Assembly (NCBI GenBank): GCA_003864495.1
Contig: ML133409.1
Coordinates: forward strand, 646,966 to 710,965
Direction of reading: 5' to 3'
Length of the DNA stretch: 64,000 nt
Origin: Nemopilema nomurai
Lineage: Eukaryota; Cnidaria; Scyphozoa; Rhizostomeae; Rhizostomatidae
Shown here: positions 14,773-56,405 of the stretch, piece after piece
Position numbering within the stretch: the stretch's first letter is position 1
Layout: every line of letters starts with the position of its first letter
Notes under the pieces: generated by a model
The model's database searches: none
The model's input: the letters and a program-made list of their open reading frames with translations, nothing else
What the model was told of the DNA's origin: nothing
Position numbers and translations under genes: made by a program

Positions 14773-17700
14773 TTATCGGCCCTTCTTTCCTTTAGCCTTT
14801 TTACCCCGGCTCTTCGTCTTTTCTTTGTTCTTCATTGCTCTTATGTCTTTCTTCATTCTCGGATCAACAACTTTGTATAGCCCCTTCACACCAGATGGCC
14901 TCGGATATTTCTTGCCGGCTTAAAAAGAAAATCGTTTTTACATAAGATAATTGAAGACTGACAACATTTACTAAGCGAATTTAATCAAGAGAATTGTACT
15001 TTTACAATATGAAAGAAAATTCACTTACCAAGGCCCTTCTTTGCGACAACATATTTCCTCTCGATTTTCTTCTTACTCAGTAACCCAGCGTTCTTGTAAA
15101 TCCTAGGGAAATTCATAAAAATATTAAAAATTCTTGATATAAAAAATCCTCAATGATTTCTCGAGTTTCTCAAGGTCATTTCATCTAACCACAATCAAAT
15201 CAGCTGGAATGCATAATAAAATTTCTATATAGATAAATGGTATAATATGCATACGATTTTATTTGAGACATCTTTTCTTTTTCTGATACGTCTTGGGTTT
15301 CCAATATTGTGTCAGCCTTTTTGCGGACCTTCTCCATTTTCTTCATCATCTACAGTTGGAAGAAATTCAGATATCGATAATATCTTCATCAAACTGCCTT
15401 CATCATCAATTACATCAAGAAAGTAAATGAAAGATCTGAAACAGCCAATGTCTATTTGAGAAGGGCATGATACAATACTAAAAGCTTTCAACCTCTCCGA
15501 ACTAAACTACGCTAGTATGCAAAAATTATCTTTTCCTTGCTTCTTACTATGGTGAAATTTCTCACCACAAAACATTTACTCACAAAAGTGATTCTTTAAA
15601 AATTTCAATCCTAGTCCATAAATCTCTAAAACCGAACGAGAGAACTGAGATAAAAGTGGAATGTCTTCCGTCAACTTTCAGTGACTGTGAAACGAAGAGT
15701 TACCAAAGTGCTAGCATTAGCTTCTACAAGAACAAACACTGTACAGAGAATGCGACCAACTGTAACCAAAATTCACCTTTCGTTTTTTCCTTGCTTGCGC
15801 TTCCACCACTTTCTTCATAGGCCTGGCATTAATGGCCTTGAGCCTTTCCTTGTAATAGAATACATCCTCTTTCGTAATCGGCAGCTTGATTGACGTGTGC
15901 TTTTTCTCCTCATCCGCGAACCACGCCGGCAGATTTTCATCACCGTAAGAGAATCTGGGAAACACAATTACTCGCATCAAACCTGATCTACAAGCTATTC
16001 AACTTGAACTAAATTAAATGTGTACATTCTCTGCCAAAAGTCTTGGAACACTTGCCCTAATTTACGCATCGCGCAAGTTGCCAAATCCCCGCCCCGCAAA
16101 CAATGTGGCGCAAAAGTGAATAATCCTAAAAACAAAAGTGAAGTATTCTCATGAACCTATGCCCTTCCCCTAAAGATGCAACATTGTTTAAGGGGGCAAG
16201 GGGGTTGCAGCTACCAAGGAGAGACGGAAATAGAACGAGGGTTGCAAAATCAAAAAAATATCACGGTGTTCCAACTACTTTTGGCAGATATTGTAGCTAT
16301 AATGTGTAGCCATACAAAATTGGGATGAATATTTCATTTTTCCACAAAAGTTAATAATGTGTTTTATAATTGATCGGTCTGGAAGCACTTGCATTTAGGC
16401 AGAGAAAAGATGTGGATTTTCTTGCTTTCTGAGGGAGAGAGATTTCTATTTCCGCAGAGAAAGACAGCGCACTTTGAGGCCGTGCAAAAGGACAATCTAA
16501 CACAGTTTGTTTCATTTTAAAGAGAATGTTCCTTTGTGCACCTCCAAAGTGTACATCACAATCTCTACATCCTCAGTTCGCCTTACTCTCTAGATGGCGA
16601 CATAACAACCATAGATAAAAAGTATATTGATAACAAATACAGAAGAATTTCAACATCCAATAGCATCTGGGAAATCTTTGAAACAATGGAGACTGGTAAA
16701 AAAGAGTCTGATTGGGGCTGGTAAATCCCTATTTGTCTAGAATTCATTGGAATCGCGTGACAGGCGACTTGCGGCTTTCAATTCTGTAAGGCAAGCTCTT
16801 TAAATAACCAATCTGACGGTTCTGTTTGGAGAAGAACTCTTGACTCAAAGAAAAACTAATTAAATTAGATGAGCACCTGTTGTATGCATCATCGACAATA
16901 TCTCGCTTTCGTTTCCTGGAGGTAGCCATGGCGGCACCAAGGGCCAAAGCCTCTGGAGTAAGGAATCGGCTGGCTACAATACAAAGAGATTGACGGCTTG
17001 TAAAAGAAGGTTTGATGACAACTAATCCAACAACATTTCATTCAGCAAAAACTCGGTTGTATGAAAAACAAAGACGTTAGCTCAAGAAGAGGGAGGGAGA
17101 AAGATAACGAGGAAGATAAGAATAATTGGTGTTATGTTCTGCAGATCGTGAACGGCTCTGGTGACTGGTGACTCACCTTGATGCTTTTGTGAAACTACTT
17201 CAAACGACCCCGGCTTCCCATCCGACTCTTTCTTGTCTTCAACAGTTTTTCTCCCTTGAGAGATGCTGCGGTCGTCGATTTCAGAATCATCACTGTCACT
17301 GTCATCTTTCTCGTCATCATCTTCCTCGTCATCATCTTCTTCTGCATTTTCTTTACCTGCATTTGCTTTACCTGCATCTTCTTTACCTGCATTTGCTTTA
17401 CCTGCATCTTCTTTACCAGCATTTTCTTTACCTGCATTTGCTTTACCTGCATCTTCTTTACCTGCATCTTCTTTACCTGCATCTTCTTTACCTGCATTTT
17501 CTTTACCTGCATTTTCTTCTTGCCTTTCATTCACCAACTCTGCGTTTGACTTCAGCTTTTGCTGATTCTTTTTAGCCTTCACCGTGTCAATTTCAGACTT
17601 TGTTCCAGTTTGTTCACCTAAAAGAACAAAATATCATCAACTAATAAATTTGATAAGACGGAATGAGCTCATGAGCCTGAGCAGACCCAGATAGGCTTCT

Positions 17701-36800: not shown

Positions 36801-39800
36801 TTATACAGGTTGTTTGGCATACGTTCTAGCAGAAAAGCAACTTACTAGACTACAATGTGGTCAATAATGATTGAAGAGCACTGATAAATAGGAAAATGCG
36901 ATTGCAGACATTATCTGTAAAAGAGTACGAATACTGAACATTTTATTGACAATATTGAATTCCAAGCAAACACATGCTCACATAATACGAAAGCCAAAAA
37001 CACTTAGCAGCGGACATGACGTAATCGTTATGAAGACTTCTGCACTATTTGAAGACTATTTACTTCCAGAATACAACCTTGGCAGAAAACTAACCTAGCA
37101 AGAAAAGCAAAATTGAGGATATGTTTACATTGATTCAAAATTTCATATAAAAATGAATTTAAAATTGAATCTAATTTCAACTCTCTACTTTGGCTTCACT
37201 CGAGCCTTCATTAGAGTTGTTTACATGCCAAGGGAAATCATACTGAAACTTCACAATACAAAACCATGCCCCATATAATTGGATGAGTCATATTGCTGTG
37301 ACAAAATCAAAAATGCTAGAAAACTTTAGAGCGATGGCAGGTGCAAGTGCGGTGAAACGTAAAACCATTCAACTGCATAGCTTTTTACACGGTAGTGCCT
37401 CAAAATACCCATAACTTTTATTTAAAATTATGTAAAACAAATCAGTTTTCAACTTCAGCATAACTTTAAATTTACATTATTTCAAAAGGCGACAAAAGAC
37501 TTTGAGAAAATGGTTTTGTCTACAAGAAATCGTTTAACCCTGTCAGTCTATCAGTCTTAGCTTCAGTTCTTTCGGAGTCACCTCTTGGCTTTCTTGCAAT
37601 TGGTTAAATACTGGAGCAATGCACGTCAAAAACGCCAACAACTGGAAAGTCAACAAGACAGCTCTAATGTTAAACTTCCTTGAGCTTGTGTAAAGAAGAG
37701 ATTTCGGCTCGAATAAGTGGCAGGAGAAGGGCCAATTATATGTATGGCATGGAACAAAGGCAAGAGACAGTACCAGGTCCTTATTTTCAATTCAAAGCAG
37801 CAATAGGTAAAGAAGCCGGCATATCAATAAAGGATGACTTCTATTGACTATTTTGTGAATGGTCATACAGCTAATCAAACAATTCAAATGCAGATACAAC
37901 ATTAAACATACCTTATTAACAGCGAATAACATTGTAGCTGCATTGAACTACTTACTACTGCACAGTACAAAAGGCACAAATTCGCATCTCGTTGCACCCT
38001 GGATTCAGGCAGCTTTTCCTGAAGAAGAATACCTCCAAGAACGCATTGACGTTTGGTAAAGGTTACCAAGGCAGCGAAAAACTCATTAATACAGACTCAG
38101 ACGAACCGTTTGGTCGATCTCCTTCGCATGTGTGATGTCGCTCCGCCTTGCGAGACTATTGGCGAGACCTATTACAGGGTTGTCGGTGGTGCAGAGAGCA
38201 AGGTTTGGTAGCAAAATCCAAATACTTCGGATAGCATCCATTCTAATGATAACAATTCTGAACCATTGCTATATCAAACCTAAAGGTAGAGTGCTTGAAA
38301 TTAAATTGACATCTGGCACAAGGTGCAATTTTAGGAGGCGGAAAGATACAAGGCTGTAAGATGATGGAAAATAAGTGACTTCCAAATGATGCCACAGTGC
38401 AATGAAGCATTTCTACTGCATATGCGAGAACCGACAATAAATCAATTATTCACCTTGAAAAAGCTCTGTAAATAATACCTCAGTCGTCTGTAATAGCCAT
38501 GAGATTAAATTACGGTAACTAGCCATTTAATGAAATAACGCAGTGTCTTATTCCATGAATTGCCTTCTAGGATGAAAGTAAAGATTATACCAAGTAGCAG
38601 CAATTTAGAAATGATGAAGAAAGACAGACGAAAAGAGGAAAGTGATGCCGAGAACTCGAAGCCAACGATGCCAAATGATGTCCAGTACACTGTTAAGCCA
38701 CATGCACTCTTCAAAGAGCAGTGTTACCAGTACCTGAACTCGTCCACGACGCATGGCCTAAACAAGATTGCCAACGCACCGAACCTATTAGCGAAGGTCC
38801 TCTGGTCAATAATCGTCGCGTTTCTTCTATTCTATCTACTCTATGCCGTATACAAGTTGCATCAGAAGCTTCTTAAAGATGACGTCAAAGTGACAGTGCG
38901 AACTAACGTTGTCAATTCACTTGCCCTGCCAGCTATTACGGTTTGCGATGCAGGGCCTGTTCGCATTTTGTTTCCGGAAGCGGCTAAAAAGAACGCGACT
39001 CCATCGAACGTGACAGCAACAACACCTCTCGAAGACCAGATGGAGCACACTCGTCGCTTGATTCAAACGAAGAACCAAACCAACAATAGTCATGGTGCCA
39101 TCCCCTTCGTGCTGAAAGCAGCCAACGGAGAGATGCCATTGTGCCACCTTTCGGGGATATTTGCTCCTACCACAAACATTTGAAACACTTTTTGACGCTT
39201 CACAAAGGCCATTGCTTTACGTTTAACCACGACGGCAAGGCCAGGCAAGTGTTGAAGGGACCTGACATGGGTGTCTTCACGGTGTTTCATCTCGAGAAAG
39301 AGCGAAACCACACGACCAGCACCTCTGCGACATCAGTACACGGCGTTGAAATATACGTGCATGAACCGAACGAGAAAAACCCCACACACTACGGCGGCCT
39401 GCTAGCGGTACCGGGGCAACTTACGCGGATCAAACTAACAAAGACCGTGAACAGACGATTGGGGGCACCGTACCCGGACATGTGTAGACATTTGAACATC
39501 GAAGGCCTTACCCTACACGAATGCCAGATCGACTGCATCGCTAAGAGCCAGTACATGCGATGCAACGCGGTATCGCTACTGCTTCAAATCTACCTACACG
39601 ACGTAACTGCAACGGCGTGGAGAAATGGCGCGAAGATTCGTGAGCCCGCGACGACTGCTGAGTACGATTGCGTGGAAACTGTAACCGACTCCTATGCGAA
39701 TGGTGACATATCGTGCAACTGCGTTCTTCCATGTCACGAGGTCTCCTACGATACAGTGACGTCAACAAGCAAATGGCCGCTGAGTGATATCACTGACAAC

Positions 39801-42800
39801 ATTTTGCAACTAATTAAAACAAGACTAGGGATCGTGATCAAGAAAGAAGACGTTGATAGACAGCTTGTTGCAATTCAAGTGTTCTACGGAGACTTGCGGT
39901 ACAAGGAACTCAGGCAATATCCGGCGTATTCCACGGAAGAATTCTCCTATGACCTCGGTGGTCTCTTGGGGCTCTTGATCGGGGCATCGGTATTCTCAGG
40001 CATCGAAATGGCAATGTTTGTTCTTCACGCCATGCAGAGCCAAATAAGAAACTTATTTGAAAAAAGAAGCACCAATCAGTGAGGCCACTGGGGGCTACGA
40101 GACCTCCTCGGGGAATAATTTTAGGTTCCATTTGAGAATACTTCATGCTGAGTCGCAAGTGATAAAATAGATTGTGAACTTTTTATTTGTCGCGGGGAAC
40201 TACATTATGTAGTGGTTATATTTTGAATATATCATATTGATCATTAGACATATTTATCCATTACAAATCTACGCTCGATACGTTGTTGGTCAAATCAACT
40301 GTCAATTAACAAATGACCTCCTTAAACACATACCAAATAACATCCAATACTGTGAAATGATACATAAGGCATTGTATATTATTTTTTAAGCAGTTAACAA
40401 TTTATTCGACACTTTACGCATGCCATAAACGATTTCCCTTACTTCTAGCGCCGCAATAGCAAGCAAGTCTTTGGACCTACTAGAAGTTTCGAGGTTAGCC
40501 TACTTTGTTTACAGGGCAACAGGGATCTTTTAAAAATTCATCTCTAAATAATCTGAGTACGGAAAATGTCATCAAAGTAAATTAAAGTTTGGCCATCTGG
40601 GCATAGCCATAGGATACATCTTGCCTTTGATGAACGTTTTCATATTCATTTGAGGCAATAAGTTCCTTATAATCCTTCACATAAGGGCCTAATTGCCAAT
40701 TACAATATTCAACACACTTCTTTGAAGGACAAGATACGTAAAACTTTGCTTTGTAAAGCGCAAAGTTAAGCCGGATAAAGTTTCAATAGCTGCAAAGGGA
40801 AGCCTCAAAGTATGATTGTACTCTCTAACAAAGAAGGAATTCTATTTCTTCACAATCATTTCTGATAACTGACGAAAACTAATTTGATGACAAACTATAA
40901 CTACAGTGTAGACACGGGAATTCATCAACTAGCATTTCTGTGAGAAGACTAAATTCATTGCCAAACTGACCGCCTTTCGCATGCAATCCTAGTGAAACTC
41001 AACAAGGAACAAACTGATTTTATTATTTCGTTAATTATGTATGAATGATACTTGGAATTTTTTAAACCGGGTCAAAAAGAGAAGAATAAAAGTCTTTTTA
41101 CATGCTGAATGCGCAAGTATGTGGTAACGAGCCTTTTGTCAAATCCATTATCAGCTAAAGATGAACTGCTAACCGCTTTTCAATGTGAAATATTGCTTCA
41201 ATTAAGCAAAAAATGCAGTTCTTTCAGCCTTCACGGCTAACTTGATCAAAAACAAGCCCTTGTTTTGATAAAAATACTAACTTCCAGTCTTCATATTTTT
41301 TTATTGGAATTAATTGATTTCATAAGCTTGATCTCGATCTTGATTGTAACCGTTCAATGCAGTGAATTCTAACTGTTTTAATAGCATGCTTTTGGGTGTA
41401 TTCTTAGCAGACTTTGAAGCAAAAGACGAATGGTAATTGCCAAGGCTCTGGTGATGACCAAATTAGCAATGCTGGAAAACTATACGTAACGCCAACCAAA
41501 GGTACACTACAGAAACTATGCAGGTATAGATTATTGGTTGCTTTATTGTATTCCAACGAACATAGGAAAGTCGTCTCCCTTCTCTATAAAGGCATATCTC
41601 TAGAAGTAAAGAATTCAACACTGGCTGAAGGGGGATGGAACGTGGCGGACTGGAATCTAATCACTAATTTATGCTAATTATGCCTATGATGATTTTCCTG
41701 TTTGTATATATTGTAATCGCTGTTTAGAATCACGAGTCAGTTCATCACCTCAATACGAGTTGCACGCTATCTCTCGCTGTCGATCTCTGCCTACTCAAAG
41801 CCCATTACAACTGGTGGAAGACCCAGATTGCTATTTAGCATTTAGCAACGAATCTCGCCTTCACATTCGCACCAACATTGTCGTGCGCAGCAATAACGTA
41901 ATTCGTCGTACAGAAACAAACAGCACAGTCCTTCCCAAGATAAACGTCACTTGCACTTACTGGCTGTCGATCTCTGCCTACTCAAACCCCATTACAATCG
42001 GGGGGGGAGGGGGTTGGTACTATAAGGGTGTTGGCGGACATGGTGAGCTCTAAACAGACTTACTTGAAAGGCAGACTGAACAGACGAAACCAATGTCAAC
42101 CAGCTGGCGATGGCAGAAACAGGCGCCTCTGTAGTCAATTTGGACAGCCGAAGGCAGGACGAGAGACTTTCTGACTTGCGGATCAGGAAGAAACATCCAC
42201 TAGAAAAATAAACCACGTTTATATGCTTTGAATTGAGTTGGGGAGAACGCGAAAAATACCTACGATACTTATTCATCGATCAGATCTTTCTTCAGTAGCA
42301 TGTAATGCCATTTACAAAGCCTAAATATCTCCAATGATTGTCTATGAATTGACAAGAAACAGAGGAATCAAAAATTACATCTAAAATTATGGTTCCACTG
42401 TTATGAAGGATGACGAAATATGAAAGAGTAATCTTGCTATAAAAAGCTACTAAAAGGTGAAAGTAATCGCTTATGCATTGAAAGTATCATTCTGTAGTCG
42501 TGTTTTAGATCAATGTTAAAAGGCAGGGGGTAGTAATCATATTTTGCTATCTCTGGCATTGTCTTTTTAGTGTTGTATAGTTATTTCGTTATTTAGTAAT
42601 TCGTCATTGTAAACTTTTATATAGAATAAGAAGAAGTAATTGTCTTTTCAGCAAAACGCTTTTCTTTAATAATCTTTAAACGGACTAGCATGTTTCATTG
42701 GTTAGGGTCGATAGTGAATTAAAAGACGAATCAAGATATGAAAGCTTAGCCATTCAAGCACGCTGATTAATCAGGTACGAAAATCATCACTATATCACTA

Positions 42801-49775: not shown

Positions 49776-51131
49776 ATGGCTGCATCGTTCGCTGTGGAAA
49801 ATGGAAAGGATGTTGCGATCCGAAGTCAAATGACAAAATTCGGATGGTTAGAAGGAAAAGGTCTTGGTAAGAAAGAACAGGGAAGAAAGGAAGCAATTAA
49901 GGTTTCTTTGAAGAATAACAAAAATGGCCTAGGACTGGATCCAAGTGAGCAGTTTGTTTTTCATTGGTGGGATCACGTGTTCAATAAAGTCGCAAGCAGT
50001 ATCAAAATAGAAGAGAGTGGAGATGAGGTACGGAACGTCTTTGGCTTGATGATGTCTTCGAAGAAGAATTGGTGTTTTGATTTTTTTTCCATTGACCCCA
50101 ATGATTTAACCAAAATTTTGGTTGGACATGCATCTGATTGCATAATTTAATTTCAACGCTATAAAAATTTTAAGCCCTGTGCATGTTTTTCTGTAAGCTT
50201 TCAAGAAAGTGACCATGAGTAATTTCTTGTTGTTTTGAAGTTGGTCAAAGTTGAACAACAACCCCTCAAATATATACTGTTTTTATCATAACAGGTAACA
50301 ATTTCAAAGCATAAAGGTGATCAGCTTGCAGGACCTGTTAGCAGTAAGAGACCATCAAACGCAGCTAAAGGAAAGGAATTGTTGTATGGACGGTTTGTCA
50401 GGAGTGAAACCACTGTGGTTGGTGGCGAATTGGTAGGCACTGCTGACAAGCATTCTGAAAGCAGTGATGAAAGTGATGGAGAAAAAGACTTCTCTAACGC
50501 AGACACACTTGAAAAGGCATTCAGAATATCTGGTGGGATGACAGCACACAAGGCAGCTAGGCATGGTCATCAGTTGAATGGAAAATTAAAAAGACTTCAA
50601 GATCAGGAAGGTGCTTCATCAGATCATAATAGCAGCTCATCAAACCTTGCTAAGGAAGACTGTGTAGTGAAACAAAAGAAAAATAAGCGGAAAAGTAAAG
50701 ATAAAAAGTTAATTTCAACTGAAGATATTGCTGGTGAGCTGCAAAATGATGTACAAGATGAGCTGTCAAAAGAATGCATGGATGATAGGCTTCTCTTGAA
50801 GAAGAAAAAACCTAGTGAAAATGTAAATGAGCATGTTTGTAAAGAGTCTAGTGATAGAAAGCCTTCTTCAAAAATTGGGAAAGATGTTGATAGTTCAAAA
50901 AGAAAAAGAAAAGGAAAATCTGAAAAGGATGCACTTTTAAAGGGCTCTGTTGATACTGAATGTGGGACTGTGGTTGACAAAGGTACTAAAAAGAAGAAGA
51001 AGAAAAGAAAGCGAAACTCTTCATGTTGCGAAGAAATGAATAAGGACTTGGCAGATATAGCAGCTAATCAAGTTGAAGGCCAAAAACGAAAGAAAAAGAA
51101 GAAAGAGAAGAGGAAGAAAACAGAATGTTAA
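49776..51131 (+). CDS. GPATCH4: G-patch domain-containing protein 4, two exons
   Basis: Nucleolar/Cajal-body protein whose G-patch is expected to activate a DEAH helicase (DHX15 in human) during rRNA and snRNA modification. Exons 49776-50027 and 50295-51131, phase 0, 362 aa. The G-patch is at the N-terminus (FGWLEGKGLGKKEQGRKEAI), followed by GLGLDPSEQF and HWWDHVFNK, the conserved GPATCH4 extension. Exon 2 has LLYGRFVRSETT and MTAHKAARHG, matching the second conserved block, then a long Lys-rich tail with KKKKKRKR-type runs serving as nuclear/nucleolar signals. A possible AATAAA lies near 51424. The open frame continuing past 50027 in exon 1 is intronic. Confidence 0.93.
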
Positions 51132-52432
51132 CATAATTGTTGTCGAGGAAGGGAAGCTCTGTACCCATTGAGTTATGATTCTTTTTAGAACCTTTTCTCT
51201 GTTTCATTTTCTTGCAATATGATAGAAAGGCAATAACCTAGTAATTTTACTGCTTTTTTGTTGACTTATTGAAAACTTGATATGGAAGCAAAACTTTTAT
51301 GTAGCACATTGATTTGCTTTTAATATGATGGTAAAGTTCCATGTTGGAAGCTTTGACAGGTTTTTGAAGTTTTTGTTGACAGGTATTATATTTCTCTCAG
51401 AAATAGAGATTGATAGCCCATGAATAAATTCTCTATCTAAAATGCATCAGTTTAAGGGTCAGGCCTAACTATTGCATTGTCTTGAAATTTATTTGTTTAA
51501 CTCTAGTTTAATAGCTTGGTAAGGTTGCTTTTTTGCCATACATCTAGAAACTGTCCACTCATTACAACTGACCTGGTTATAGCTCATTCCATAAAACTCC
51601 CAGCAAAGTCTGTTTTCTGGTGGAAGAACACATTTATGGCAATGCTCTTTGCTGATTTCAAGGTCCTCAATAACGTTTATCAAAATACTTGTTGTTAAAC
51701 TCAACTATTCTGTTGAAAAGATTCAACAAATTTTATATTGTTTCTCCTAAAAAGAATTGAGCTTGAAAGTTTAGATTTATGAAAGATAATTCTATCAGCA
51801 ATAGTATGAACAGTAAGAGCAACTGAGGTGAGGTCGCTCACAATTGTCTAGAGTCCTTCTTACTTCCCGATGGCTCGCACTTTTACCTTTTGATAAGGCA
51901 AACTTCTGGTGATTTAGGCTGATATTTTCCTTGTCTACAAAAAGTTGTTTACTGTATTCAAGAAATACACCAATGGCTTGCACGAAAAAACCAATAGTGA
52001 TGTCAAAAAACATGACTATCTGGCATCACTTCTCTCGGGCCATACCTTAATGGCAACACACTATAACAGGGCCTCTGACAAAGGGGGGGCCATGGCCCCC
52101 TCACTTTTTTGTAAAACAATAGAGCTTTTTAAACATCTTTTGTTATAATTGTTAAAATCTCCTTTGGCCCCTCCACTTTCCAACCTGCATCGGAGCCCAT
52201 GTTTAATAACTAGCTAAACATTTTGATAGAAGAATAGGCATTTGCTGTTTCACTCTCTGGGCGCTGGTGTCTTACCTCCTCCAAATGTACCTAAGCGAGA
52301 CTTTTCCCCAGAACGAGATTGATCACATTGGGCCTACTTTTTTAAGGTGTTGCAACGAAACTCATGTTCTTGTTAGTTTTCTATTCAAAAATGAAAATAT
52401 AACTACTTCTCAATCGGATAGAGTGGTGCAAA
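51132..52432. other. Intergenic region between GPATCH4 and the STAND gene
   Basis: No gene seen. A GGGGGGGCCATGGCCCCCTC palindrome at 52083-52102 sits in sequence that looks like a mobile-element relic (GGGCC / GGCCC ends, 52065-52200), but no target duplication was found. Confidence 0.4.
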
Positions 52433-55400
52433 ATGCGGCTTGTTGCGCCCTTCAGTTGGATCCGTACTCAGAAGGTGCCAAACCTTGGCCCATCATGCGT
52501 GCAAGCGGTGCACACAGCGACAGCAACTTCACTTTTTGCAAGAACCAGAAGCACCAGAACGATTACGACAATCAAAGCAAATTGTTCATTTTATAAACCA
52601 AAGCACAGGCATGGCATTGTTCCTGGTTCTCGTGTAAGGAGACATTATAGTCAAAATATAGAAGACGGCACTCAGTCACTAACCTTCATGGAGAAAGTTA
52701 AGAAGTTCTGGAACGGGCCTACATTCAAATATTGGTTCATTGGAGTCACTGGATTCTCAACCTGGCTTGCCTATTATAGTCTTAATTCATACAAGAGCAC
52801 AAGAGTAAATGTCAACCTGCCATTAGTTATGCCCAATCATTTGATAATTGAGCGGGAAAATGAAATAGCTGAGGCTTTTAAGTGCATCCAAGATGCAGTA
52901 CCTGTTGGGAATAAGGTTAAATGCATTGCAATAAGTGGACCAACTGGCTCAGGTAAAAGTATTATTGCAAAGTCTGTGGTAGAGAGACTGATGACTGAGA
53001 TTGACTGGAATCCATTAGGGCTCCCAAAGTCCCATGTTAGCGTATCTTTAAGTGGTGAAAATCTGAGAAACTTTTACCTATCATTGCAAGCTTTTGCTGC
53101 CAAGATGAAAGTTAGACCATCAGAAATCAAGGAAAAAGTAGAGGCTTCAACTGAACCAAACTCATGCATTAGTAAATGCATGGCTATTATTGATGTTTTG
53201 AAAGAGAAGCTTGAAAAACATCCAAACTGGGTTTTTGTGGTTGATAACTTGCAGCAAGGGACATCTGAAGAAGTGGCAAGAGTTCTGCAGGACTCGTTCT
53301 CGACCCCAGTGTTGCAAATCCTGGAGCAAAGGAACATTGATTATAACTTCAGATGGATTCAATCTTGGAATGATACAGGGAATAAAACAATTCAAAATGG
53401 AACCAAGGTAACTTTTGTTATCACATTCCCCAAAAGCAGGCTTAAATTTTTCAATTTTTGTTCATTCTGCTATCTTTCTAAAGGTTACCTTTAGAGGATG
53501 CAGAACAAAGTTTTTTTTATGTGTAGCTACTAATTTACTTCAACTTGTGTTGTATCTGGTCTTGAGTTATAGGATACTCTCAATACCAACTAAAATGCTT
53601 CTGTAAGCTTTGTGGAGCTTCTTCTTGTGATGTTGAATATAAAATGATGCACATACTGACATTCTAGCAAAAAATATGGTGATTGGTTGTTGCTTCGAGT
53701 CTCTTATAATCGCCCTAGACAATGTATTATTTAGTATGCTTTTCTTATGGGAAGGTGCACTTTGGTGTACATTAGCAACAATGCCTGAGAATTTTGATAT
53801 CATAGGCCTGAACGTATTTTCAATGCAATGAGTAGGGGCTAATTCTTTTTTGATACCTTTCCTTTTTATTATTTCCAAAATATGTGGCCAGATAGATTGG
53901 ACAAAGTTATTCATGTTGAAATTGTGGATCTGAATCAGGAAGCCATACATAAACAGCCTAATGTTTCAATCAAGGAAAAACCCTATCTAGAATTTTTAAT
54001 CTAAAAATCTCCTTAGAATTGTTGCTAGTTGACTTTTATATGCACCAGTTAGATTTTAAGTGGCAATTTACAAGCATTGTCTATACCTAATTAAGACTAA
54101 ACCTGTTTTATTAATGTTAGAAGTCTTATTCACTTGCAAGATCTTGTTTTCTGTCCATAGATTGTCAGAGGCAGATGCAACTAAGCTTCTTAAAGATATG
54201 ATCAATATTGATGATAGTTCATTTGAAACTTCACCTGCTACAAAGTCATTATTGAAGAGACTGGCATACCATCCAATGGCAACAATATGTGCTGCTATCC
54301 TGCTCAGAGAAAAGCTTAAGGAAAATAAAGTCAAAAGTATTGATGGTATTCTTAGAGAACTAGTTATTGAAATTGCAAACTATGGGGGCCAGGTATTGAA
54401 GGACAGTCCACTTGGTCCAAGAGAAGGAGTAGCAGAGTCATTAATTATTGCTGAAACAGTCATCGCAATGGCTTTAAAAATGCTGTTAAATAACCAGCCA
54501 CATTTGAGTGCATCAATTGATCTTGTGTCTGCCTGCTCACCAAGAACTCCAGTACCATCTGTTTTTATCAGAAGATATCTTTCTCATCCTTCTCTGAAGC
54601 TGTCAAAACTTGAAAATCCTAATCAATCACATGATAGTTTACAGCAGATGTTTAAAGCTGGTTCTGGGACTCAAGATGAAAGCCTTGATCCCAAGGGAAA
54701 AGCATGGTCAAATAAAAGTATAACAGAATATGTTACTAGTGTTGAAGAATGGTTTTCAGAAATCTGGCAGGCCTTGAAGGAAGTATATAGCTTTTATTAT
54801 GGCAAGATACCAGAGCCAGCAGTTGATAACAGCATCAAAATTCTCCATGATTGTGAGCTTCTGTTGTCTTCCAAACTTCAGCCAGGAGGTAAGATGATAG
54901 GTTTAGATAAGAGGCATATATTTTTCAGATTGAAACATTGATTTTCAGATTGAAATTCTTTAAAATATTCCTTTTTTGAATATCTGAGATTGACTTGTGC
55001 CATCACTTATGGTTGTATTTGAAGAGTCACCTTAACCCTCTCCTCGTCATCAAACTTAAAGTGTATCACTAATATCAAAGTGTATCAAAAAAATGTTTTA
55101 ATTTGATTTGATCCAATTCTCAAATTGTTTTTTATAAATGGCTTTTTGCCAACCATGTGTATATATATGTGTACATTTGTAGTTTCCAGTGAATAATTTT
55201 TTTTAACGTAATAACTATTTAATGTTCTAGAAGTGGAGTCATATGCAATGCACCCACTGATATATGCAGTTGCCAGACAGCACTACTTGTCAAGGGCAGT
55301 ACCACTCTTGGAAGCATCCTTCCTGCAAGAAGACGAGGAGAGGTTCAGTAAACAACCTTGGTTTAAGAAGATGTCCAAGTATGATCCAAGCATAAGCTTA

Positions 55401-56405
55401 TTTCAGTACAGGAATGGACAGTCTAAAGAGCAGATAAGCTCAGAACAGGCCCCTAAATTTTCCCAGTTATACAACAATGCTTTGATTGATGTAAAATGTG
55501 TCCTAGGCGAACCTAATCTGCAATTCAACGAGACAGATTTTCGATTTTTGACTTCAGAAAGCCAAGTAAAGCATCTACAGTGTCATTTAAACAGGATAAT
55601 GGGATGTCTCAGTGAAGAAGTGAGAGTGTCAAAGCAGACCGTGTCTGGTAAAACAGCTACGAAGTACCTGAGTATACACGCAGATTACCTGCGGGAAAAT
55701 CATGCTCCCGAAATACTGGGAACGGCAGCTCAGATAACTGGTTTGTTAACAGCAGCAAAAGTCAAGTCAAGTTTTGAAAACGACTTGGAAAATGCCATAG
55801 GCGAAATAGAAAAGGCATTGAAACTAGTCAAGACACGTGATCCTGATAATTCTCTGGAGATTGCCAGCATTTTATGTCAGCTTGCAGCAATGTGCAATTC
55901 TAAGGAGGACCACGAAAGTGCACAAAAGTATTTGGAAGAAGCTGTAGACATCTACGAATCTCAAAGGAGAAAGGATGGCGAGTATAAACGACCTTTGGAG
56001 CTTGGAAAGGCCCTTGGAGCGCTTGGGGTTATCAAAGGAACTCTCGGGGAAAGGACAAAAAGCAAAGAATTGATTGAGAGGGGCCTAATGCTACAGCAGA
56101 CTGGTGCACCTGATCTTGCAGACGAGGCTCAGAGCAAGCACTTCGGAGGAGAATTCGCAAGCTCGTTGACTGACCTAGGACATGCATATGTCTCGCTGGG
56201 AATGCCTTTGTATGGTAAGAAGATTCTCAATTTATCCTTGATGGCACACAAGAACATTCATGGTGAGAAACACCCAGAGGTTGTCAGGACATTAACAGTT
56301 CTCAGTGTAGCTCATTTGATGGAGGGCCATAACGAGGAAAGCAAGAAGCTTCGAAAGGAGGCTGGGAAATTGCAATCCCAGCTAAATGCACTTCCTTTAT
56401 ATTAA
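52433..56405 (+). CDS. Predicted mitochondrial, membrane-anchored STAND P-loop NTPase with C-terminal TPR-like repeats
   Basis: Exons seen: 52433 to about 53409 (or slightly beyond), 54161-54888, 55231-56405. The phase of the second junction agrees (1). Between exon 1 (phase 0) and 54161 (phase 2) one short exon is still unplaced. Residues 1-75 lack acidic residues, are rich in Arg/Ser/Thr and end RRHYS, fitting the R-x-Y/S processing motif of matrix-targeting peptides. A transmembrane segment follows (about 99-117). Then Walker A GPTGSGKS (169-176), Walker B WVFVVD (266-271), a helical region, and SYAMHPLIYAVARQHY, which resembles the winged-helix end of NB-ARC/TPR STAND proteins. The last exon has TPR-like helical repeats (HESAQKYLEEAVDIYE, YVSLGMPLYGKKILN). 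I cannot name a characterised orthologue. A Yme2/RNA12-like or AAA origin is the main alternative. Confidence 0.78.

Follow-up and report, generated by a model that had tools for sequence, protein, structure and literature searches.

A jellyfish gene for a probable mitochondrial STAND switch combining an NB-ARC-type NTPase with a TPR sensor

The stretch of DNA analysed here, called the window throughout, comprises 64,000 nucleotides of the jellyfish Nemopilema nomurai (assembly GCA_003864495.1, contig ML133409.1, positions 646,966 to 710,965), and the gene in question occupies 52433-56405 of its forward strand. An earlier note made from the letters of this stretch had proposed that it encodes a mitochondrially targeted, membrane-anchored STAND nucleoside triphosphatase (NTPase) with TPR-like repeats. 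The gene is real, and on balance we favour the view that this nuclear gene encodes a mitochondrial STAND switch in which an NB-ARC-type NTPase and a TPR sensor are combined with a presequence and a membrane helix. The parts of this reading differ in firmness: the STAND-TPR body is secure to the point of near certainty, mitochondrial import is likely judging from N-terminal composition, and the membrane segment is probably an anchor, weakly hydrophobic and with many aromatic and glycine residues. Comparison of sequences and folds gives the order of domains as NB-ARC-type NTP-binding, helical, winged-helix with an MHD-like motif, arm and C-terminal TPR.

Results

A three-exon gene with a frame break in one haplotype

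A single gene with three coding exons (Table 1), bounded by GT donors and AG acceptors, accounts for the whole of 52433-56405, and the outer exons lie where the earlier note had put them. By contrast, no exon is missing between 53410 and 54160, where the note expected one, as the piece concerned is encoded within exon 1 in another frame. The segment of P0001 (a EukProt entry, 51% identical to the window protein over 96%) from WSRGTVILTHDG onward corresponds to WSKGTLIITSDG of the window, and splicing from the donor at 53407 to the acceptor at 54161 is in phase in the frame of WSKGTLIITSDG. An open stretch within the intron (DKVIHVEIVDLNQEA...) was tried as an exon and rejected, its blastp comparison with 20 relatives remaining at chance level (best E 1.2, 7 residues). 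As assembled and spliced at these sites, the window copy runs into a stop after 332 residues.

A second copy of the gene explains this break. Searching the 213 Mb assembly that holds the window (226 contigs) with P0001, with the best candidates scored, matched one place other than the window, on contig C47. Over 27 kb, beginning at 37042 and reaching the window's end, C47 parallels the window in four long pieces of 95.6-97.7% identity and in the same order, and on this ground it is taken to be the other haplotype. Exon 1 is 977 bases long in C47 compared with 975 in the window, where two single-base gaps stand about 20 bases apart, near 53296 and 53316; the C47 copy is open across all three exons and gives 959 residues that include the sensor-1-like strand. 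The frame break is thus explained by the two gaps, and it may stem from an error of assembly or mark a null allele. Over the 26,218 columns of the haplotype alignment the window has 23 one-base gaps and C47 has 20, which gives no clear sign that the window contig is the poorer of the two. Of 2,878 aligned exon sites, 13 vary between the haplotypes (10 synonymous, 3 nonsynonymous), with 2 gap columns in the exons, compared with 15 of 1,300 sites in introns and flanks and 24 gap columns outside the exons, a pattern such as would be expected of a gene under constraint. As a separate observation, the parallel between 78000-107999 of C47 and 37042-64000 of the window means that an uncollapsed second haplotype has apparently been retained in this assembly, and gene counts taken from it may be inflated.

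Relatives and the start of the protein

Relatives were collected by three overlapping protein searches yielding 1, 7 and 16 matches (the third listing E ≤ 1e-20 only), each of which scored about 8,000 candidates with the most shared words. At least 20 relatives are among the matches listed, seven of them near full length (P0001-P0007), and these include proteins of Clytia (P0003) and Hydra (P0005; LOC100209216). The third search lacked P0003, P0005, P0006 and P0007, all of which had been matched before, so that a lack of anthozoan or bilaterian matches in these listings is not informative. Composition and motif counts were made on eight proteins, namely the window protein as encoded by the other haplotype and P0001-P0007; P0008-P0020 were excluded, of which P0008, P0009, P0018 and P0020 are without the N-terminal half and the others are 385-443 residues long.

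An in-frame stop lies at 52400-52402, and the first ATG after it is that at 52433. A KYW motif ahead of the NTPase is preceded by 50-97 residues in the seven near-full-length relatives, making a hidden upstream extension of the start unlikely, while an acceptor-like AG at 52420-52421, between the upstream stop and the ATG, leaves room for one.

An NB-ARC-type STAND body

The Pfam NB-ARC profile scored 35.4 in P0007 over a cut-off of 23.5, covering positions 6-244 of the 248 in the model; this is the one relative in seven to pass, and NB-ARC appeared at E ≤ 0.1 in six of the seven members scanned. When a profile of the seven relatives was compared with solved structures, APAF1 (1z6t) was matched over profile positions 104-343 with an E of 8e-4 and NRC2 with an E of 1.4e-3; the TPR portion of the profile also matched kinesin light chains, and its P-loop portion NSF and other AAA proteins. 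Fold models were made of the whole proteins P0001 (mean pLDDT 67, pTM 0.52) and P0007 (mean pLDDT 72, pTM 0.67), and for both predicted folds the top Foldseek match was 6mfv (PH0952), with E of 1.5e-7 and 6.8e-11, respectively; the P0007 model also matches SAMD9, CED-4, Sr35, NRC3 and NRC4. Taken together, the NB-ARC score of P0007, the leading place of PH0952 and the profile matches to APAF1 and NRC2 give good support to the proposed STAND NTPase with a TPR sensor.

Several matches stayed below their cut-offs: AAA_16, AAA_22, NPHP3_N and novel-STAND families of Pfam in the window, and NACHT in P0007 (17.1 compared with 26.7). Scans of P0001, P0003 and P0007 returned weak matches only from PADLOC (best E 4e-4) and, from NCBIfam, the FxSxx-COOH system TPR protein over the TPR part of P0007 (89.9 bits, E 1.4e-25, the cut-off of 300 not being reached). 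No LRR family was listed in Pfam scans of the window exons and P0001-P0007. Elsewhere in the same genome, four other NB-ARC matches over the Pfam cut-off lie on C91, C122 and C9 (L012-L015).

Degenerate catalytic motifs and a conserved sensor

The GPTGSGKS and WVFVVD motifs read earlier are present in the window, and correspond to Walker A and Walker B (Table 1). Among the eight members, a second Walker B acid is found in P0007 only. The sensor-1 arginine, in a motif that we take to be the one named RNBS-B, is missing in six of eight, including the window gene, and occurs as VTRE in P0006 and P0007; since it is a variable feature, assignment to STAND is based on fold and remaining motifs. The degenerate state of Walker B and of sensor 1 suggests, on sequence grounds, slow or absent hydrolysis, so that nucleotide binding may set the switch.

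The proline of the helical-domain GxP/GLPL-type motif is found in all eight members and PLA in six, and helices are predicted at 296-363 for this domain in the P0007 model. An MHD-like HP[LIV] is present in six members, including the window gene, with SP in the remaining two. The NB-ARC-style block SYAMHPLIYAVAR singled out by the earlier note does sit in exon 55231-56405 and is, as placed by this survey of motifs, the MHD-like motif of the winged helix; in both models a helix begins at its proline directly behind a beta hairpin, the wing.

The TPR-like helices were borne out by Pfam TPR_12, which scored 51.7 bits with a cut-off of 30.1. Identity over the TPR part reaches 73% to P0001 and 51% to Hydra and Clytia, and in the NTP-binding domain, which is 45% identical to P0001, 11 of 200 positions are invariant in the eight members.

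N-terminal composition and the membrane segment

Mitochondrial targeting was argued earlier from an acid-free N-terminus ending in RRHYS, and both features were found again: in the other-haplotype protein acids begin at residue 77, and RRHYS is there. The comparison of composition across eight proteins adds support to probable import. In all eight, the first 19 positions are free of acids, and the first 30 residues hold four acids in total, with none in five proteins. Drawing 30-residue windows at random from the same proteins 100,000 times gave a mean of 31 acids and a minimum of 9 compared with the 4 observed, in a composition-based comparison of eight members that are related and so do not amount to eight independent tests. 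Not one of the 76 presequence positions is invariant, meaning that composition is kept while letters are not. Cleavage sites of the R-x-Y/S or R-x-Y/A type (the slash marking the cut) are found in the window protein, P0001 and P0007.

The PxxKYWxxG motif is present in eight of eight members and leads into an uncharged stretch before the NTPase that is 18 residues long in six members, 17 in P0007 and 14 in P0006. This KYW-associated segment is the longest stretch without D/E/K/R/H/Q/N in seven of the eight, and a helix is predicted at 96-120 in P0001 (with low confidence) and at 69-96 in P0007. Linker and segment together are 61% identical between the window protein and P0001, compared with 45% for the NTP-binding domain.

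Results that weigh against this reading

A number of results count against the reading of the gene as a membrane-anchored mitochondrial STAND switch. As to the body, TM-scores to 6mfv are low (0.22-0.32), from which we conclude that the domains match and their packing does not. Six of the seven relatives and window exon 1 are below the NB-ARC cut-off or unlisted, and the genome-wide NB-ARC search that gave the four other matches did not include the window gene. NSF, an AAA protein, outscores APAF1 in the family profile, over the P-loop alone; phmmer of P0001 against solved structures returned TPR-type proteins only; and the 50 rows from VIA-align held TPR and other helical proteins with no NOD protein, a result that is uninformative according to the tool's own note. 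As to the N-terminus, acids do occur among the first 30 residues in P0002 (1), P0003 (2) and P0006 (1), and in P0003 itself 21% of 30-residue windows are equally acid-poor. As to the membrane segment, it scores low on two hydrophobicity scales. The Kyte-Doolittle mean over 19 residues is 0.4-0.9 in the eight proteins, compared with a usual threshold of 1.6 for a membrane segment, and on the Hessa scale the segment is the most hydrophobic stretch in just two of eight. The single membrane segment claimed earlier is therefore weaker than was stated; an anchor is plausible, with an uncharged stretch in all eight members.

Other features of the window

Just upstream of the STAND gene, at 49776-51131 on the forward strand, lies a gene for a G-patch protein (Pfam G-patch, 46.4 bits compared with 22), behind which comes an open frame with a lysine-rich tail; by eye the protein is probably GPATCH4-like. 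A DEG/ENaC-type channel gene at 38539-40082 on the forward strand passes the cut-off of Pfam ASC in two frames (model positions 1-113 and 165-455). Its frame switch at about 39090-39183 is also found on C47 and so is not an error of one contig, being either a fixed frameshift or an unrecognised small splice. On the reverse strand, an open frame at 17082-17633 has tandem five-residue repeats and an acidic tract; its match to Pfam Pentapeptide_2 (33.3 compared with 26.4) is possibly one of low complexity.

Table 1. Features of the STAND gene in window coordinates (a slash marks a cleavage or splice point)
Feature	Position	Strand	Remarks
Coding exon 1	52433..53407	+	Presequence, membrane segment and NTP-binding domain; two one-base gaps relative to the other haplotype; donor AAG/GTAACT
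Probable mitochondrial presequence, residues 1-76	52433..52660	+	Zero acidic residues; end RRHY/SQ
Probable single membrane segment, YWFIGVTGFSTWLAYYSL	52730..52783	+	18 residues without D/E/K/R/H/Q/N; starts within the conserved PxxKYWxxG
Walker A, GPTGSGKS	52937..52960	+	GxxxxGK[ST] in 8/8 members
Walker B, WVFVVDN	53228..53248	+	First acid in 8/8 members, followed by N or Q in 7/8
Sensor-1-like strand, WSKGTLIITSDG	53322..53357	+	In a different frame of exon 1 in the window copy
Coding exon 2	54161..54888	+	Helical domain carrying the GxP-type motif HPMA, and the greater part of the winged-helix region; donor GGAG/GTAAGA
Coding exon 3	55231..56405	+	MHD-like motif, arm, TPR sensor and stop codon
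MHD-like motif, SYAMHPLIYAVARQ	55239..55280	+	Proline starts the helix after the wing hairpin in both relatives' models
TPR sensor, residues 701-959	55626..56402	+	Most conserved part; 50/259 positions invariant in 8 members

Discussion

The arrangement described above suggests how such a protein might work. A cleavable presequence, as indicated by the composition kept across relatives, would be followed by one membrane helix standing in the place of an effector domain. From what is generally known of import, stop-transfer of this helix would leave a short matrix stub, with both NTPase and TPRs facing the intermembrane space from the inner membrane. If PH0952 and MalT are a guide, the protein at rest would be closed around ADP and locked by its arm and TPRs; binding of a conserved mitochondrial partner by the TPRs would open it, with ADP being replaced by ATP, and the opened protein would cluster in the membrane as a scaffold. 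If this is true, the protein would belong to STAND while having no effector domain that is recognised, and its output may be membrane clustering itself. If the protein is imported, a switch of the APAF1/NLR type is placed inside the organelle that APAF1 monitors from outside. Orthologues exist in Hydra and Clytia, both of which are laboratory animals.

In receptors engaged in an arms race, the sensor is usually variable and the genes are multiplied. One place per haplotype was found for the jellyfish gene and its TPR part is the most conserved one, which argues rather against a diversifying immune receptor, and a housekeeping or stress-surveillance role would fit one conserved copy better than would an arms-race immune receptor. 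We favour a conserved mitochondrial partner and a role as a switch or scaffold, with stress sensing being possible.

Three other explanations have to be weighed. The one that survives best, a tentative yet serious possibility, is that the protein is a factor for respiratory-chain assembly or protein biogenesis built on a STAND fold, comparable to Yme2 or, by description, to TTC19 and BCS1L. The conservation of the TPR part is in keeping with it; TTC19, an accessory factor of complex III, is a TPR protein (PMC4391031), and in Yme2 the ATPase domain lies in the intermembrane space and Walker B is atypical (PMC9284673). However, no RNA12 sequence match was found in the proteins scanned or in this genome, and a build of NOD, arm and TPR is typical of an inducer-driven switch.

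STAND proteins are typical hubs of immunity and cell death, which speaks for a second explanation, an NLRX1-like mitochondrial sensor that is imported under normal conditions and signals upon import failure or upon meeting foreign or damaged molecules. NLRX1, itself a mitochondrially addressed STAND protein, acts in mitophagy when import fails (PMC10837482), and a presequence joined to an NB-ARC-TPR body would permit the same logic. We nevertheless consider such a sensor unlikely: a second locus or tandem copies were not found in the genome search among the best candidates scored, the conservation of the sensor is the reverse of what an arms race leaves, no effector domain was matched, and NLRX1 is a NACHT-LRR and not an NB-ARC-TPR protein. 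Somewhat more doubtful still is a narrower form of the switch favoured here, in which an APAF1-like NB-ARC-TPR protein would sit on the inner membrane where it faces the intermembrane space, the compartment of cytochrome c, its TPRs reading the state of a conserved component of respiration or import, as a cell-death or stress switch kept in medusozoans and placed within the organelle instead of the cytosol. Finally, that the protein is not mitochondrial and is instead an NB-ARC-TPR protein of the cytosol or another membrane with a coincidentally basic N-terminus is improbable, for although the membrane helix is weak and coral NB-ARC proteins carry mostly TPRs, making the body ordinary for cnidarians (PMC10236652), the first 19 residues are acid-free in all eight members despite unconserved letters, and arginine-type cleavage motifs stand just before the conserved membrane-proximal motif in several of them.

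Comparison with known systems

APAF1, CED-4 and the plant NLRs are cytosolic, with a CARD or coiled-coil effector and, where a sensor is present, WD40 or LRR repeats. With APAF1, CED-4, NRC and Sr35 (the NB-ARC or AP-ATPase proteins) the jellyfish protein shares an NB-ARC-type NOD, as profile and fold matches indicate. The order of its parts is that of PH0952 of Pyrococcus horikoshii (6mfv) and of MalT, in which a nucleotide-binding domain, a helical domain, a winged helix, an arm and TPRs follow each other, and in PH0952 this order comes with a double lock by arm and sensor (PMC6468293). The two differ from it in being linked to transcription, PH0952 as a putative regulator and MalT as a transcription factor; compared with both, the jellyfish gene adds an N-terminal presequence and a membrane segment, and its Walker B and sensor 1 are degenerate.

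Among mitochondrial proteins, NLRX1 is alike in being a STAND protein whose N-terminus carries a mitochondrial targeting sequence, and is called the only known NLR at mitochondria (PMC10837482). It differs as a matrix protein with NACHT and LRR and without TPR. RNA12/Yme2 shares a presequence, a single membrane segment and a P-loop NTPase domain, and Yme2 is laid out as presequence, matrix domain, membrane segment and intermembrane-space ATPase with an odd Walker B; it differs in having an RRM and no TPR (PMC9284673). Membership in this family, which the earlier note had named as an example of a non-STAND family that the gene might turn out to belong to, was tried and rejected: PF10443 was unlisted for P0001 and the window exons (E ≤ 1) and for P0002-P0007 (E ≤ 0.01), and it had 0 matches in the genome. 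The label itself was misplaced, as RNA12 is named a mitochondria-associated STAND NTPase (PMC8195603). The same source counts the mitochondrial DAP3/MRPS29 among STAND NTPases, and by description it is set apart as a ribosomal protein of another STAND branch. The mitochondrial STAND NTPases named in the literature consulted, NLRX1, DAP3 and RNA12, are all without the NB-ARC-TPR build.

The earlier statement that no characterised animal protein has this order of parts needs narrowing accordingly. Mitochondrial STAND proteins are known (NLRX1, DAP3), and what stands is that no mitochondrial NB-ARC-TPR or STAND-TPR protein was recognised in the open-licence literature searched, in the portions available. 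Similar in body are the coral proteins in which NB-ARC is joined mostly to TPR repeats; NACHT and NB-ARC families are amplified in corals, and the NB-ARC-TPR proteins are treated in that paper as amplified cytosolic receptors (PMC10236652), whereas the jellyfish gene was found at one place per haplotype and has a presequence-like N-terminus. Set beside these systems, the gene looks like a switch related to APAF1 and the plant NLRs in which a probable mitochondrial address and a probable membrane anchor stand where the signalling domain would normally be.

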